Positions 1 through 64,000 of a DNA stretch of 64,000 nucleotides are shown piece after piece. The translations under genes were made by a program, and so were the position numbers. The number at the start of each line of letters is the position of its first letter. The first letter of the stretch is position 1. The DNA comes from a virus. The stretch is from IMG/VR virus record IMGVR_UViG_3300000233_000009, positions 1-64,000 of that record. The stretch is one strand, 5' to 3'. The notes under the pieces were generated by a model. The model saw only the letters and a list, made by a program, of their open reading frames with translations, was not told the origin of the DNA and searched no databases.

Positions 1-2686
1 GAGTCATTACATTAGGAACTGATATCCTAGCATTCTTTTTTACTGTACCAGTATCTTTTACTGTACCAGTATCTTTTACTGTACCAGTATCTTTTACTGT
101 ACCAGTATCTTTTACTGTATCTACTATTACATCTTCAACCTCTACAGCATTCTTTTTTACTGTACCAGTATCTTTTACTGTACCAGTATCTGCAGTACGC
201 ACAGTACCTGTAAATTCTTGTACATGTCTTGCATCTGCTTCTGCCTTGTATCTTGGAACTGATATAGCCACAGTCTGATTTTCTTGGAATTCTGTGTCCT
301 CATCTACAAGTAGTACTGGATTTGCTGTTGCTACGCCACTTGTTTTTGGAGCTATGATTGCTTTTGCATTCTCAATCCCTTTAATAGATACTCTTTGTGT
401 CTTACCTTCTGCTGTTTTTGTGTATGGAGCATTCACAGTAGTGCTTGTATGTAGCTGTACATTTGCTTTCTTAGCTTCAACTAATATACCTTTCATGGTA
501 CGCACTTTAGCTTGAATAACAGTTTGATATGCTGCTCTGCCTGACTCTGTATTATGTATAGTATAGTCCCCAACCTTTACACTACTTTTTGCGCCTTTCT
601 GCACCATCTCTCTATATGCGCTTTTTAACTTCTCATGTGTTGTATTAGTACTGTCATAAAACTTCTCTAATCTATCAGTTAATCTGCCAATCTTCGTGGT
701 ATCTGCCATATCCCCTTTTGCTTGTTCTGTTCTTAGTTTCAGTCCTGTAGTTATGTACCCTCTATCCTCTATTGTAGCTTCTGCCTCAACGCTTTCATAG
801 GTCTTCAGTGTCTTAGCTAATCGCTCAGGAGTAATATTTCCAGCAACTGCAATCTTATCTATTGCCTTTTTTGCTACAGAGCCTTCTGCAATACTATCAG
901 CCGCATGTGCAATATGTTCTATATCTAATAGTGCTTCTTTTTCACTGCCATACACTTTACTCTCTTCAGGTTTTGCTTTAGCCAACTTAGTAATTAGTAG
1001 TTCTTTCAACTTAGCAGATTGAGCTCTTTCTGTTGCAGCTAGTGAATCACTATCCAGTTCTCCTAACTTATTCAGTGCTGTTGAGAATGACATTGTCCCT
1101 GCTTTAAGCCCTTCGCTAACTTCAGTGAAAGTATCTCTTGCACTTTTTGTACTCTCAACTACTTGTTCTTTTGTGTGTCCTTTGGTCTTTGCTTCTCTAT
1201 TCTCAACATACTCTTTAGCAGCCTTTCCACCACCAGTAAGCATTCCTTGTCCTATATTGATAGCTGACATACCTGGACCACTTATAGCTCCTAGAGCTGC
1301 AGCATTAAAGACTTGTTTTAAGTACTCTGTTTTAGCCGCTTTGTCAAGATCTTGTGTACCTCCTAATACAGTAGAAGTTTCTGTAAATCCTTCTTGTAGT
1401 CCTTCCACCCCCATCGTAGTTGCAACTTTAGCACCGCCTCCTAAAGCAGCTCTTGCTACAGCACTTGGAGCTTTAGCCACTAAAGCTTTCATAGGAGCAG
1501 CAATAGCCGATGATAAAGCTCTTCCTGCACCACCTCCACCATATAGTAATTTAGCAGCACCAGTATCCATAGCAGTTCCAGCTGCAGCTAATGCCATCAT
1601 TTGACTCAATTCTTTAGCATTTGGCTCTCTACCATATTCTTTAACAAATATGTTATGTGCTTGCTCTGCGCTGCCTGTAAAAGCCCCTGCGATAACAGGC
1701 GTGCCTGTGAGTCCTTTAGCTCCCATAGCTTTTGAGAACCCATACATTTGTGACGCTAGCTCAACAGCTCCTAGAGGGTTGTCAACTAGAGCTTTACCCA
1801 CCCCTGATATATACTCTTTGTCATCAAAAGCTTTTCCTACTCCGTACTTAAGTCTATCCTGAGCATCCGCGTTATACCCTATCAAGGATTCATCTGCATC
1901 TTTTATAATGTTAGAAGCATCTTGCATTGTGTTCATAATAGTCTTAACAACTTTAGTATATGTTGGATGTTGCTCTTGGAAGTAACTACCATCTTCCATG
2001 TAATCTCCACCAAGAGTCTTATACAGCTTTGTAGGAGATTCTAAAACAGCTTCAGCTACTTGAAGTACACCAGAAGCACCAGCTTTAGCTAAGTTGACTA
2101 CATCCTCTGTAGCAGAAGTCTTTATGTGTTGGTTATTGTAGAGTCTAGTACCTTCTATAAAGTCAGCTGTACTTGGATCTAATCTCCTAAGCTTGTCTTG
2201 TGCAGCTTTATACACTATCTGCTCTTTCTCCGTAGGATTTGCAGTTGTAGACGCTAGTCCAGTTCCTAGCATATGCTCGGTCAGACCTTGGTTGTACAAT
2301 AGTCTTCTACCATGCGCATCTATGCCCATATCAGTATACTCGGTATCAGGATGTAGTGTTAAGTACTCCTGTAACTTGGCCTTACCTGCTAATCCTATTC
2401 TTTTCTGTGCTGCTAGTCCAAGACCGTACTGGCCCAGTAGTGTCTTTGCTTTAGTGTTACTAGCAATGTCAGCAGTAGATTCTCCTGTATCAAATCCCAC
2501 AAGTCTTCCACCAACTATAGTATCTCCATCAATTACAGTGTTTATTCCTTTATTTGAGTACACATCAGGAAGACCTAGCTGTGTAGCAGAATTAGACAAT
2601 GTATTTACAGCATTCCCTTGAGCTTTTGTAAACAGTTCTGGAGAAGCTACCTTACTGGCATTTGCAAATAGTTGTTCTAAAGTCAT
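1..2686 (-). CDS. Virion RNA polymerase (N4 gp50-like), N-terminal part, cut by window edge
   Basis: The frame is open from the ATG at 2686 (preceded by AAGGAG) to the left edge, 895 codons, with no stop. The Ala/Gly-rich helical middle, including a GVEGLQEGFTE stretch followed by a run like AALGAISGPGMSA, resembles the membrane-active N-terminal third of the N4 virion RNA polymerase. The gene is also last in the late operon, as in N4. Residues about 48-146 look like a staphylococcal-nuclease-type fold: VIDGDT at 51-56, RLVGFDTGE at 61-69, DAHGRRL at 123-129. Near the edge is a DTGTVK tandem repeat. In N4 this protein is packaged, injected and transcribes early genes. The polymerase motifs are outside the window, so the identity rests on position, size and the two flanking parts. 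The other end is probably the minus-strand ORF at 60583-64000. Confidence 0.75.
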   Translation of the reverse strand, partial: MTLEQLFANASKVASPELFTKAQGNAVNTLSNSATQLGLPDVYSNKGINTVIDGDTIVGGRLVGFDTGESTADIASNTKAKTLLGQYGLGLAAQKRIGLAGKAKLQEYLTLHPDTEYTDMGIDAHGRRLLYNQGLTEHMLGTGLASTTANPTEKEQIVYKAAQDKLRRLDPSTADFIEGTRLYNNQHIKTSATEDVVNLAKAGASGVLQVAEAVLESPTKLYKTLGGDYMEDGSYFQEQHPTYTKVVKTIMNTMQDASNIIKDADESLIGYNADAQDRLKYGVGKAFDDKEYISGVGKALVDNPLGAVELASQMYGFSKAMGAKGLTGTPVIAGAFTGSAEQAHNIFVKEYGREPNAKELSQMMALAAAGTAMDTGAAKLLYGGGGAGRALSSAIAAPMKALVAKAPSAVARAALGGGAKVATTMGVEGLQEGFTETSTVLGGTQDLDKAAKTEYLKQVFNAAALGAISGPGMSAINIGQGMLTGGGKAAKEYVENREAKTKGHTKEQVVESTKSARDTFTEVSEGLKAGTMSFSTALNKLGELDSDSLAATERAQSAKLKELLITKLAKAKPEESKVYGSEKEALLDIEHIAHAADSIAEGSVAKKAIDKIAVAGNITPERLAKTLKTYESVEAEATIEDRGYITTGLKLRTEQAKGDMADTTKIGRLTDRLEKFYDSTNTTHEKLKSAYREMVQKGAKSSVKVGDYTIHNTESGRAAYQTVIQAKVRTMKGILVEAKKANVQLHTSTTVNAPYTKTAEGKTQRVSIKGIENAKAIIAPKTSGVATANPVLLVDEDTEFQENQTVAISVPRYKAEADARHVQEFTGTVRTADTGTVKDTGTVKKNAVEVEDVIVDTVKDTGTVKDTGTVKDTGTVKDTGTVKKNARISVPNVMT
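36..190 (-). repeat. 18-bp tandem repeat encoding DTGTVK units
   Basis: The plus-strand unit TTTTACTGTACCAGTATC occurs at 38-55, 56-73, 74-91 and 92-109, with a partial copy at 110-120, and again at 155-172 and 173-190. Each block is preceded by the same GCATTCTTTT sequence, so a larger segment has also been duplicated. In the vRNAP frame the repeat reads (DTGTVK)n. It probably forms a flexible charged linker after the N-terminal region. Copy number may vary, or be wrong in assembly. Confidence 0.9.
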
Positions 2687-2701
2687 GTGTTACTCCTTAC
2701 A

Positions 2702-4045
2702 CTAGTATGTTCCATATGCTGGGGCTACTCCAGTCTCTTTAAGTTTATTAAGGTAAGCAGCTCCTACTTCTTCTGGAGTACGTCCTGTAAATGAACCAAA
2801 CAATCCACTACGCTCACTCTCAGATATACTTTTAAACTGATCCATCAGATGCTTTTCTGCATCACGGGTCTCCTTTGCTGGAGGGTTCTTTTTATTAAAC
2901 GTATACTCGATAGCTAATTTATCGGCTAGTGCTTGATTATCACTCTTCCCTACTGGCTTAAGCTTTTCTCTTTCTAGCTTCTGACTCTCTTTAAACTGCG
3001 ATGCGTTTTGTCTTAAAGCATTTGCAGCCGTCTTAGCCTGAGTATTTGTGGCTAAATTCTGTGCTGCTACTGATGCTCTCTTGTACTCTTTCTCGAGCTG
3101 TAGTTCACGCTCCTTCAGTGTAAGTGTCCTGTCTGCATTGATTTGCTCTACTCTTGCGCTCAGACCTTTAAGTAAGAGGTCGCTCTTCAGCTTCGTCACA
3201 TCTGATACTACTGTGCTTGGTAGCATACTATTTAATGTATCGGTCACATTGTAGTCTTTTGGGTCTAGTCCAATATTGGTATATATTTTTAGTAGATCCT
3301 TCCTAAACGCCTCTCGCTCTGCTGTGTTATCCTTAGGGAGTGCATCAATAACTTTTTTGTACCCTTCTGTGATAAGCCGGTCTACTGGTTGCCTTTTTTC
3401 TGGGGAGTACCCTGACTTATTAAGCGCCTTTGATCCTACTTTTGTCAAGTCTTGTACTGCAGGCGTAGGAACATTATATGTTTTCACGTCCACTTTAGGA
3501 TCAAGTTTTGCTCCCGCACTTGCTAAGGCTATTTCAGATACAAGCTTATTGTTCATAGGATTGACGTAATACTTAGTTCCTTGGGTGTATGCTTTGCCAT
3601 CCAACCCAATAGGATTTTTCAAGTCTATGCTCTTCAACCATGCCTCATTAGCAGTTCCCACAGCGTTTGTTGGAGTCTGTACTACTAACCCATTCTGATT
3701 GTTAGGTACTGGAATACTAGTAGACTCAGTCTGAATAGGAAGAGTTGTAGCATCCTTCTGAGCAGTACCAGGTCCAAGTATATTTACTAATGCTTCACCA
3801 GCAGCCTTCATAGCCCCTATTCGCTTTGTTCTGTCGGATGCTCGTTCGTCATACTCGGCCTTCGATCTATTGTCCACAACCTTTTGTCTTGCTGCTTCTG
3901 TCTCATATCTCTTCTGTAACTCTCTGTCTTGTATAGCCTGTCTTGCCAATCCACCTACTTCTGTAAGATCTTTGGCAGCGCTGTCCAACAGTCCATTAGA
4001 CCCCCTGAAGTCTGGAGCAATTCTTTGTAGTTGTATTCTATTCAT
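2702..4045 (-). CDS. Putative internal virion protein (447 aa)
   Basis: Lies directly upstream of the vRNAP gene, with a 15-nt gap and an AAAGGA site before its ATG. The protein is highly charged and helical with no membrane segment: residues 25-100 and 300-380 are rich in K, E, R, A and Q and look like coiled coil. In N4, small virion proteins (gp51, gp52) sit in this position and are packaged with the polymerase. I infer an ejected or internal virion role from position only. No catalytic motif is visible. Confidence 0.6.
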   Translation of the reverse strand: MNRIQLQRIAPDFRGSNGLLDSAAKDLTEVGGLARQAIQDRELQKRYETEAARQKVVDNRSKAEYDERASDRTKRIGAMKAAGEALVNILGPGTAQKDATTLPIQTESTSIPVPNNQNGLVVQTPTNAVGTANEAWLKSIDLKNPIGLDGKAYTQGTKYYVNPMNNKLVSEIALASAGAKLDPKVDVKTYNVPTPAVQDLTKVGSKALNKSGYSPEKRQPVDRLITEGYKKVIDALPKDNTAEREAFRKDLLKIYTNIGLDPKDYNVTDTLNSMLPSTVVSDVTKLKSDLLLKGLSARVEQINADRTLTLKERELQLEKEYKRASVAAQNLATNTQAKTAANALRQNASQFKESQKLEREKLKPVGKSDNQALADKLAIEYTFNKKNPPAKETRDAEKHLMDQFKSISESERSGLFGSFTGRTPEEVGAAYLNKLKETGVAPAYGTY

Positions 4046-60197: not shown

Positions 60198-60586
60198 AAT
60201 GGATAAATAGACTTAAGATGTGGCGTAAAGCTCGTGGTATAACAGTACCGTCAGGCAAGATTGTAACGATGTTAGAGGAAGAAATAGCGGAATACTCACA
60301 TGCTAGAACTATTCAAGATGAACATGAAATGATTGATGCTTTAGCAGATATCATAGTATTAGCTTCTAATGAACTAGCTTTAATGGGTTATGATACGGAT
60401 TTAGTATTGAAACAGACTGTAAAACATATCTCTTCTAGGGTCCAAGACCCTGCTCAAGCAGCTTTATGGAAATCTGGGCAGGTATCGGAAAAATGGAAAA
60501 AGTATGCTGACCAGAATCCTGACAGCATCTATCTCCCTAATTACAGTTCATGCAAACTCAAAAGGAGTATCTTAGAGCACTCTTAG
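60194..60586 (+). CDS. MazG-like nucleotide pyrophosphohydrolase
   Basis: All-alpha NTP-PPase motif: MLEEEIAEY (EExxE) and HEMIDALADIIVLASNEL (ExxxD/DxxD) with AAGGAC start site. 130 aa. Family members hydrolyse (d)NTPs or ppGpp-like alarmones, often to favour phage nucleotide pools. Last gene before the convergent vRNAP end; both stops sit in one hairpin loop. Confidence 0.75.
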   Translation: MKWINRLKMWRKARGITVPSGKIVTMLEEEIAEYSHARTIQDEHEMIDALADIIVLASNELALMGYDTDLVLKQTVKHISSRVQDPAQAALWKSGQVSEKWKKYADQNPDSIYLPNYSSCKLKRSILEHS

Positions 60587-60594
60587 GAGTGTTC
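60575..60594. terminator. Stem-loop carrying both convergent stop codons
   Basis: GAGCACTC (60575-60582) pairs with GAGTGTTC (60587-60594), one G-U, loop TTAG (60583-60586). The plus gene stop TAG and the minus gene stop TAA lie in the loop. It may be a bidirectional terminator, but neither side has a strong U-tract. Confidence 0.55.
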
Positions 60595-63500
60595 ACTAGA
60601 TTTACCTTGTGTTTTACTGTACTTGCCTTTAACCACTTCAGATACTGCTGTAAACTTTCTTCTAGCAATCTTCTTAACTTTGTTAAAAGTGTCTTCTATG
60701 TACTCCTCCGTTTTAGACCCTTTAGTAACTGCGTATAAAAGTCTTTTACTATTTTGCTGTGTAGTATGCATTACCCCATCAGCATCTAATATTTCTACTG
60801 TGTAGTATTCTATATTAACATCTTTATAATGCCCAACTAAAGTTACTGTAGTAGTTTCTCCTTCTTCTAAGAGCATTTCAGGACCTTTACCAATAACTAC
60901 CGTAGACTTAGGGTGATATATAATATGCTTGTTCTTTAAAGGCCCTTCCACTATCCTGAATTGAGAGTATAACTTTATATCATCTCCATATTTTAATGGT
61001 TTACCAAAAGGGTGTGCATTATCATCACTACCTAGAATCAGTTCAACTGAAGTAGGAGTAATAGCATTGGCAATATTGTCTAATGGGTTATGGACCAAAC
61101 CTCCATAGTTCTTTGTCCATATACTCTGCTCACTAACATCAGGTACATCAACTGTTGCTTCTTGTAATAGCATACTATATACAAAACTTACAGGTTTCTT
61201 CTCAATCAAGTACTGAAGAGCTCTTTGTGTTCGTTTAAAGTACTTAGTAAACATCAGTAATCCTATCTTATTAAGCCAATCTTCTTTTGCAGAAGAGATC
61301 TTATTGTAGTTTACAAAAGCATTTATTACAGTCTTCAGTGCATTATTATGAAGAACCCCTTGCTCTCTTAAGAATTGGTACTCTGTTACCCTAGCAACAA
61401 CATCACTATATTGCGTAAACAATGTCATCATCTTAAAGAATTGAGTTTTCTCACTGAGGTATATCCAATGCAATCCTTCCTTAATAAATCCTGGCACACC
61501 TTCTCCTACGCTTTCCACCTTTTTAGAAATCTTATTTGTAGTCTTGAAATCTTCTTGCCCTATATCTTCAGTCTGCACTGCTTGATATAGCCCTGATTCC
61601 ATCAACTCATGCAGAGGGTGTTCTTCCATCTGAGCTTGTAGATTACGAGCTTTTCTCTTAGCATTTGGTTCTCCATTTTTTCCTTTTTGGACTTGTAGCT
61701 CATGATTATTACGTAATTGAATATACTCATGTACAGCAACAAAATTTGAGGCTGTTCTCTTAATAACTTTTATAGGGTTATTACCTGATTGCACACTATA
61801 AAATGCATTAGATACAATATTACTTAATAGGACTCCTGGTGTTCTTATGATAATATCTACCTTTGAGATCTTAATCAACTCTTTCCAGTATCCTTCCACT
61901 ACTCTGGTTAAGTCCTGTATTTCTTTAGGAGCAACCCCATTAAAGTATATCCCAAGGGCCCCTGCATTTAATATAGTAGCTTCTTTAAATCCAAAGTACG
62001 CATGTAGCATATCTCTTCTTACTGCTATGCCTGTATATCCTTCATGATCTACTGCTTCCTTAAAGCTCTTTGGTAATAGTTTATAAATACTTGCAATTTC
62101 TTCTATGTGGCTATCTTCTGTTATCTTGACATACTCTCTTCTGTTATGCCCGTACACTTCACCAGCCACATAATTTGCATCCATGTCTGCTTTGATTACT
62201 TTTAGAACTTTATTGTTCTGCTCTTCTGTTTTGCTTTTATCATACATATTTGAATGCATTCTGGCAAGTACATCAACTCCATCAATATCTTGCTCTAGTA
62301 AGTCTCTTTTAGCCTTCTTAGACATCATATATCTAAAAGTGTGCAGTTGGTATGCACCAGTAATAACAGGAGATAATCCTATTGCTATATCCTTTACTCT
62401 ATCATAGGTACCGGCTAACATCTCTTTTGCAATTTCTCTTTGTTGTCTTTTAAGTATAGCAATATCTGTGGCTTCCTTAATTCCTCTGTATGACTCACTA
62501 CCCTTGAATCTGATATCGCCTAGAGTTGTTCCTCGTCGTCCTAGGTCAGTAATTCTAGTAACTCCAGGACTGTATCCTAGAGCCACAAATGCTTTACTCT
62601 TATACACCCCCATAGGTTCTACACTAGTGTCAAAAGAGCTTTTATTTACTTCACTAACTAGCTCATACCCTTCATTTTCCATTTCTGCTCTTATAGATAA
62701 AGGCATGACTTGCACACTAACAGTATTGTCAGATAGTTGTGCTGCATATCCTTTTATCATCAGTGCTTCATTACCTTTAAATAACGTTTTCTTACTTTCT
62801 GTCTTAAATACGTGATGATAGTTTAAGAATTTATTCATGCCTTCAGGATCACTGTCCATTAATCTAGCAACTTCATTATTAATCTCTTTAGAGTTATAGC
62901 TTATTCCGTATAGAGTAGCAAGTATATCAACATGCTTGATTGTGATAGAGCTTGGCTTTGTTTGGGCATGACCACTATGGACTAATCGTACGATTCCTTC
63001 AGCATTGTAGTTCTGTATAATACCTGCTTCATGCGTAGCCATATAAACCCCAAGACCTTTTGCTTGTGTTGTGTACCACTTACCAAATGCTTTATCTGCA
63101 TGTAATATTGCCTCAATTCTTGCTATTTCTAATTCTCTCTTTCCTGTATGCTTTAACAACACACTAATCTGTTCGCTACTATAATGCTTTGTAAGGCTTT
63201 CTAAATCTATGTCTAATACACCTAAGGATAATACTTCTCTTGCCTTCCTACTAAGTTTTTCTTTAAACATTGTGTGTATATACCCTCTAGCAACCTTCTC
63301 TATAAGTACTTTTTCTTCCTCAATTTTACCATTAGCATACCCTAACCTTTCAATCGCATCATCAAGGGTATCAGAAGACCTCATATCCTTTAGTATGTTT
63401 GTAATCATCCCTTCAGGGTCAATTCCTAAAGCTGTCATTAGCTGTTCAAGCTCTGGTCTCAATTTTGGATCTGCTATAAGTTTGTATGAGTATTTGGTAA

Positions 63501-64000
63501 GAAAGTACGCTTGTTGTAATACACTGGCATTAATAGGTATTTGGGGAATCCCTTTATTATCTATGTACTTCTCTACCTTCTTAACAAGATTCTCACCTTT
63601 CTTATTAGCACTATCAACCATCCTAAATATGCTAGTGAATAACCCGTCATTTTTCATCACTCGATTAATTGCTTTATTGTTGGTTTCACTTAAAACTAGA
63701 GTTAGCCCTAATAGTGCTTCGTACACATTATCATGATGTTGCCCTGATTTAACATTATTCATCACTAAACTCATCAAACTTTCCCATAGGTTTTTTAATA
63801 GCCCTAATATAGAAGAAGCTTGTTCTGTCTCATTAAAACTATCTGACACATCTACAGTTTTCAGAAATGTTACTAACTGTTCATTAGTTAGCCCATGTGC
63901 TATAAACTCATGTAGTCCTTTGCCTTCCTTATTATTAAATATGTAAGTGTATGTAGCTTTTGCGATCTCTTCTTCTCTCTTTGGATCAATACTATCCTCA
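60583..64000 (-). CDS. Virion RNA polymerase, C-terminal part, cut by window edge
   Basis: Open frame on the minus strand from 64000 to 60583, over 1135 codons, without an initiating ATG near the edge; a GTG-coded Val at 63849 is internal. The sequence is rich in helical and membrane-amphipathic segments (e.g. RKFTAVSEVVKGKYSK end) and contains a long C-terminal region like the last third of N4 vRNAP. No polymerase motif A, B or C is seen in it. It should join the N-terminal part at 1-2686 through sequence missing from this window. Direct wrap-around would be out of frame by two bases. Confidence 0.7.
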   Translation of the reverse strand, partial: EDSIDPKREEEIAKATYTYIFNNKEGKGLHEFIAHGLTNEQLVTFLKTVDVSDSFNETEQASSILGLLKNLWESLMSLVMNNVKSGQHHDNVYEALLGLTLVLSETNNKAINRVMKNDGLFTSIFRMVDSANKKGENLVKKVEKYIDNKGIPQIPINASVLQQAYFLTKYSYKLIADPKLRPELEQLMTALGIDPEGMITNILKDMRSSDTLDDAIERLGYANGKIEEEKVLIEKVARGYIHTMFKEKLSRKAREVLSLGVLDIDLESLTKHYSSEQISVLLKHTGKRELEIARIEAILHADKAFGKWYTTQAKGLGVYMATHEAGIIQNYNAEGIVRLVHSGHAQTKPSSITIKHVDILATLYGISYNSKEINNEVARLMDSDPEGMNKFLNYHHVFKTESKKTLFKGNEALMIKGYAAQLSDNTVSVQVMPLSIRAEMENEGYELVSEVNKSSFDTSVEPMGVYKSKAFVALGYSPGVTRITDLGRRGTTLGDIRFKGSESYRGIKEATDIAILKRQQREIAKEMLAGTYDRVKDIAIGLSPVITGAYQLHTFRYMMSKKAKRDLLEQDIDGVDVLARMHSNMYDKSKTEEQNNKVLKVIKADMDANYVAGEVYGHNRREYVKITEDSHIEEIASIYKLLPKSFKEAVDHEGYTGIAVRRDMLHAYFGFKEATILNAGALGIYFNGVAPKEIQDLTRVVEGYWKELIKISKVDIIIRTPGVLLSNIVSNAFYSVQSGNNPIKVIKRTASNFVAVHEYIQLRNNHELQVQKGKNGEPNAKRKARNLQAQMEEHPLHELMESGLYQAVQTEDIGQEDFKTTNKISKKVESVGEGVPGFIKEGLHWIYLSEKTQFFKMMTLFTQYSDVVARVTEYQFLREQGVLHNNALKTVINAFVNYNKISSAKEDWLNKIGLLMFTKYFKRTQRALQYLIEKKPVSFVYSMLLQEATVDVPDVSEQSIWTKNYGGLVHNPLDNIANAITPTSVELILGSDDNAHPFGKPLKYGDDIKLYSQFRIVEGPLKNKHIIYHPKSTVVIGKGPEMLLEEGETTTVTLVGHYKDVNIEYYTVEILDADGVMHTTQQNSKRLLYAVTKGSKTEEYIEDTFNKVKKIARRKFTAVSEVVKGKYSKTQGKSSEHS

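Follow-up and report, generated by a model that had tools for sequence, protein, structure and literature searches.

Organization of the locus

The window, i.e. the whole stretch of DNA analysed, comprises 64,000 nucleotides corresponding to positions 1 to 64,000 of the IMG/VR virus record IMGVR_UViG_3300000233_000009, the full length of which is 68,086 bases. Both ends of the record overlap by 74 bases, and the ORF found at the beginning of the window (ORF A) can be read across them. The features considered here, all located on the minus strand, are the following.

2..2686, minus strand: ORF A, first piece of a split virion RNA polymerase (vRNAP); first 895 of 2029 codons, running on past the record end
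26..205, minus strand: hexapeptide repeats DTGTVK (from the translation); the run crosses the record end
2192..2545, minus strand: SNase-like head domain, about aa 48-165 (hhalign score 38.8, probability 89%)
2306..2308, minus strand: codon of R127, equivalent to SNase Arg87 (HGR replaces YGR); R invariant in the other heads
2480..2482, minus strand: codon of E69, equivalent to SNase Glu43; E invariant in the other heads
2489..2491, minus strand: codon of D66, equivalent to SNase Asp40
2504..2506, minus strand: codon of R61, equivalent to SNase Arg35
2522..2524, minus strand: codon of D55, equivalent to SNase Asp21 (DGDT); D invariant in the five other heads
60583..63999, minus strand: ORF B, second vRNAP piece (zincin-like and C-terminal domains); last 1138 of 1341 codons (phrog_2206)
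64600-64614 of the record (L003:4601-4615), minus strand: start of ORF B and Cys-stop/Met-x-Cys junction, just beyond the window

Coordinates are those of the window, except for the last line. Equivalences with SNase residues are those of the hhalign alignment.

The split virion RNA polymerase

Once joined over the record ends, ORF A encodes a protein of 2029 aa that is related to the virion RNA polymerase family phrog_2206 (positions 885-2001, E 2e-63; second half of the protein). The next ORF downstream, ORF B, encodes a protein of 1341 aa related to the same family (2274-3390, E 5e-147). Taken over both ORFs, the homology covers the RNAP core and the C-terminal domains, and the protein bearing the head is a vRNAP. 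As the RNAP part spans the record end, this identity is not visible in the window, and the full record was used. Packaging of this vRNAP in the virion and its ejection would be expected by analogy with the other members of the family. The DTGTVK repeats are probably a flexible linker between the head region and the polymerase domain. The overlap of the record ends takes in two repeat units, so that the exact number of repeats is unsure and may be an assembly estimate; the 35 non-repeat bases of the overlap are also common to both ends.

An HExxH motif (HAHELIHAF) is found at about aa 157-165 of ORF B, at the start of the C-terminal region; it is also present in the relatives L005-L008 and is degenerate (MEEVVH) in AD45. 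A zincin-like metallopeptidase region carrying this motif has already been described for N4-like vRNAPs (PMC5512222). The vRNAP of coliphage N4 (gp50) likewise has an RNAP core and C-terminal domains that fit phrog_2206, with HExxH in the first part of its C-terminal region. It differs in being a single chain of 3,500 residues whose N-terminal domain is described as lipid-binding, whereas this phage has an SNase-like head and two chains with one terminal cysteine each. The two ORFs are separated by TAA-ATG with a GAAGGG ribosome-binding site, and the vRNAP of this phage is therefore not a single polypeptide, a split that is common to a clade (see below).

The SNase-like head

An SNase-fold domain had been placed at the N-terminus of the vRNAP by a sequence-only reading of the window, on the basis of three motifs and of the retention of Asp21, Arg35, Asp40, Glu43 and Arg87. 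Both parts of this assignment hold, the SNase-superfamily membership by hhalign and the vRNAP by phrog_2206 on the joined ORF. The motifs VIDGDT (aa 51-56), RLVGFDTGE (aa 61-69) and DAHGRRL (aa 123-129) were found on the minus strand with the spacing of SNases (R-D, 5; D-E, 3; equivalent of residue D83 to R87, 4), and the five residues correspond to D55, R61, D66, E69 and R127 in the alignment.

The profile used for hhalign was made from 12 plasmid thermonucleases, one of which is confirmed as a member of the SNase/thermonuclease family (PF00565). Residues 36-185 of ORF A align with this profile over 88 columns with 28% identity (score 38.2-38.8, probability 88-89%), the motifs DGDT, R..GxDxxE, DxxGR and GLA being collinear. 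The top score was 20.8 for 300 shuffles of the same residues and 19.7 for about 570 other segments of 150 aa from 12 vRNAPs (heads of this phage and of L036 excepted). The half of the head that lacks the DGDT and DxxE motifs (aa 76-160) by itself scored 21.1, versus a maximum of 16.2 over 100 shuffles. The resemblance to SNases exceeds chance. The head of L036 scored 43.6 with the same profile; its best database matches are weak (E 2-8) and annotated as thermonucleases, one of them being a confirmed Pfam SNase.

The check proposed by the sequence-only reading, an HMM search against the Pfam SNase profile, failed: PF00565 gave no match to the ORF A protein at E <= 10 (hmmscan), nor in a six-frame search of the record, and HMMER searches of the head against Pfam, PDB (phmmer) and PHROGs gave no SNase match. 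The same reading was to be given up if the lack of any profile match was combined with a model other than an OB fold; the first of these was observed with HMMER, but a profile-profile match was found by hhalign, and the domain assignment stands. AlphaFold models have low confidence (pLDDT of 41 for the head of this phage and 55 for that of L036), and the best Foldseek match of the L036 model has an E of 1.6, with no SNase among the matches. As structure prediction gave nothing usable, the fold is argued from sequence only, and an OB fold is a prediction of this kind.

The head thus shows whole-core profile similarity and the five catalytic residues of the SNase superfamily while lying below the Pfam gathering score. 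By profile evidence, it can be considered as SNase-like, i.e. as a putative divergent member of the superfamily, and as a nuclease only as a candidate. It differs from the members of PF00565 by its lack of detection by Pfam, by its fusion at the N-terminus of a virion protein piece of about 2,000 residues (no signal peptide was seen by eye) and by its beta1-beta2 hairpin, which is four residues shorter than in canonical SNases. DGDT and R61 are separated by four residues versus about eight in plasmid or canonical SNases, and the active-site geometry may therefore be altered; the hairpin of L036 has the canonical length.

Heads of related vRNAPs

Neither tblastn against phages, nor single-sequence scans of IMG/VR, nor a scan of genome contigs gave any relative of the ORF A protein or of its head. 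The vRNAP relatives considered below were drawn from IMG/VR. Examination of their N-termini, also suggested by the sequence-only reading, revealed five further vRNAPs with an SNase-like head at the same place (L031, L034, L036, L047 and L062). Aligned by themselves, these five heads have an invariant DxD, R, E and R of YGR at the SNase positions. All five catalytic residues are present in the heads of this phage, L031, L036 and L062. The head of L034 has an N at the position of Asp40; in that of L047, the aligned column contains an R, though off the SNase spacing, and its Arg35 is counted as lost. The head of this phage shares only about 25% identity with the others.

A helical insert is found in several SNase-like heads (aa 112-158 in L036; similar in L034, L062 and L031). 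In L036, it has a weak Pfam match to sigma-70 region 3 (E 0.003, under the curated cut-off). Behind its SNase-like head, the vRNAP of L034 carries a lysozyme-like domain (aa 239-348; phrog_27932, baseplate hub and tail lysozyme, E 4e-26).

Eleven other vRNAPs of the clade begin with a different head, in which Y, K-x-G, RY, E, R and G-x-x-E are conserved.

Second head type, vRNAP N-termini: L009, L010, L011, L013, L027, L028, L030, L032, L037, L043, L045

The vRNAP of Alteromonas phage AD45-P1 is among these eleven. By eye, this second head perhaps resembles GIY-YIG/T5orf172; since Pfam, PDB profile and plasmid searches supported no name, it is left unclassified.

The vRNAPs of L027 and L031 share 92% identity over their last ~1,500 residues (1,497 in the comparison), yet their heads are unlike, which makes the head an exchangeable module. 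SNase-like heads are moreover scattered on the polymerase-domain tree. The head is one of at least two exchangeable modules in a clade of N4-like phages.

Outside these relatives, the DGDT motif is absent from the published vRNAPs of Vibrio phages PG11 and JA-1 and of Alteromonas phage A5 (L005-L007). N4-like vRNAPs have been described as polyvalent proteins, fused to lysozyme, ART or PBECR RNase domains and to a zincin-like peptidase (Iyer et al. 2017, PMC5512222); the main text of this survey names no SNase or GIY-YIG fused to a vRNAP. These two results agree with the earlier remark that the N4 vRNAP is not known to have an SNase domain. Like polyvalent proteins, which associate a vRNAP, effector-like enzymatic domains and a zincin-like metallopeptidase and are delivered by the virion, the protein set studied here includes an SNase-like head, an RNAP core and an HExxH region, and would be delivered in the same way. 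It differs by its split vRNAP and by a head that is exchanged between otherwise nearly identical polymerases. Effector fusions to N4-like vRNAPs are already known; the SNase head, not found in the papers searched, is a new addition to an injected multi-domain polymerase of a known kind, and its interpretation as a nuclease is plausible.

Proposed role of the head

The N-terminal ~165 residues are proposed to be a divergent SNase (OB-fold) domain used as an exchangeable head, most likely a metal-dependent, sequence-nonspecific nuclease delivered with the polymerase (probability of about 0.6). The position of the head in the vRNAP, its SNase homology, the retention of the catalytic residues and the exchange of heads among near relatives are computed results; metal dependence, catalysis, target and timing are properties that we infer from the type of domain. 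Two other proteins are ejected along with N4-like vRNAPs, and the polymerase comes to lie at the channel in the host (PMC12633501). The head could be delivered together with the polymerase as infection begins and act close to the entry site, on host or competing nucleic acid; the DNA of the phage itself would meanwhile pass inside the ejection channel. SNases need calcium, and the cytoplasm is calcium-poor. This need may keep the head active in the envelope and quiet in the cytoplasm. As the head is swapped between close relatives and lies in a polyvalent setting, a delivered effector fits better than a conserved step of genome entry. A nonspecific DNase lying beside incoming phage DNA would need some restraint, which counts against a nuclease, as do the negative HMMER searches for SNase models and the low confidence of the AlphaFold models.

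The shortened hairpin, the N at the Asp40 position in L034 and the loss of Arg35 in L047 also count against a nuclease. They favour a tentative alternative, according to which the SNase-fold module has lost or is losing catalysis and is now a head binding nucleic acids or proteins, as do the SNase-like domains of Tudor-SN; it could, for example, hold the polymerase at the incoming DNA or at the ejection channel. The N-terminal domain of N4, described as lipid-binding and channel-associated (PMC12633501), points in the same direction. The persistence of the five residues in this phage, L031, L036 and L062, despite the ~25% identity of the head of this phage to the others, would nevertheless be unexpected if the loss had occurred long ago, and this alternative is considered possible but clearly less probable than an active nuclease.

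It is improbable that the head is a nuclease for the nucleic acid of the phage itself, processing its DNA or its early transcripts on entry. Such a role would suit a vRNAP that remains associated with the entering genome and is the first to transcribe it (PMC12633501); however, an unrelated head is found on a 92% identical polymerase and the head is absent from other N4-like vRNAPs, which argues against a conserved step of genome processing. The explanation that short motifs coincide by chance in so long a protein, which would account for the lack of a database profile match and of a confident structure, is the least credible, given a score of 38.8 versus at most 20.8 for shuffles and 19.7 for vRNAP segments, a second half that alone beats its shuffles and five relatives that keep the same residues at the same place.

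The head adds a candidate for DNA or RNA cutting to the effector domains known on N4-like vRNAPs. The natural swap of heads between two 92% identical polymerases offers a well-matched pair with which to study the function of the head.

Cysteines at the seams of split vRNAPs

Nineteen split vRNAPs, each made of 2-4 ORFs, were found. The relatives listed with a split are L008-L011, L013, L025, L027, L028, L030-L034, L037, L042, L043, L045, L047 and L062. On the polymerase-domain tree, all 19 split vRNAPs and a single unsplit one (L036) form one clade (support 100/99). The 45 pieces of the 19 split vRNAPs include only 54 cysteines in 74,338 residues, 52 of which flank the 26 junctions, one per side. 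In the upstream chain, the cysteine lies 0-3 residues before the C-terminus; in the downstream chain, it is residue 3 or 4 (MxC or MxxC). Middle pieces have a cysteine at both ends, and the outer ends of split vRNAPs have none; the extra splits found elsewhere in L025, L034, L037, L045, L047 and L062 also bear the cysteine pair. The vRNAP of this phage has just two cysteines in its 3,370 residues: one ends ORF A and the other is residue 3 of ORF B.

The absence of cysteine from N4-like vRNAPs has been described before (Ceyssens 2010, PMC3715699; PMC3915230); among the unsplit vRNAPs analysed here 13 of 15 have none and two have one. In the other ORFs of at least 200 residues of the same loci (a mechanical count that does not amount to all genes), cysteine represents 0.88% of residues; it occurs in the first six residues of 1 of 75 other ORFs. 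The vRNAP of L036 (L036:6635-16057), a single chain that lies inside the split clade on the tree, has no cysteine and seems to be a secondary fusion from which the pair has disappeared. These cysteine seams are more surprising than the SNase-like head.

A readthrough stop or a sequencing error is rejected because the stop is a TAA followed by an immediate ATG with a ribosome-binding site and because many relatives have their split at this very place, with variable spacing. A translational hop over the stop (TGT stop ... TGT) is thought less likely: the spacing ranges from -11 to +187 bases, some cysteine codons are followed by further sense codons and, in L062, a short ORF separates the pieces.

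The simplest reading suggested by the seam cysteines is that a disulfide, or another thiol link, re-joins the chains. The vRNAP of the clade would then consist of 2-4 chains rejoined end to end by disulfides, ejected as one string tipped by exchangeable heads (SNase-like here), with pieces maybe freed by the reducing cytoplasm; this whole scheme is given even odds. Each bond would pair the cysteine at an upstream C-terminus with that at residue 3-4 of the downstream chain and would keep the polymerase tied to its C-terminal region and let the pieces be ejected as one string. N4 requires this region for packaging (PMC5512222), and it inhibits the polymerase (PMC12633501); after entry, the reducing cytoplasm may free the pieces and this inhibitory domain. 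Assembly in a reducing cytoplasm is a difficulty; the bond could then only form inside the particle or once the cell has lysed. No report of a disulfide-joined split vRNAP was found in the open-access literature searched.

The seam cysteines make the packaging of a vRNAP of more than 3,000 residues, and its threading through a channel of ~35 angstrom, accessible to testing. AD45 is an isolated and cultured phage in which this idea can be tested directly: if the chains are joined by disulfides, the pieces of its vRNAP should migrate as one without a reducing agent and separate in its presence. The vRNAP of AD45-P1 belongs to the same clade and is split at the same place, with a cysteine close to the end of the upstream chain and a downstream chain that begins with MTIC; it differs from that of this phage by its unclassified head, which is not an SNase. 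In the AD45-P1 entry (KF005317.1, L004:1606-13288), the split vRNAP has no CDS and is recorded as a misc_feature, 'potential frameshift'. The presence of the seam across the clade points to a true gene split instead.
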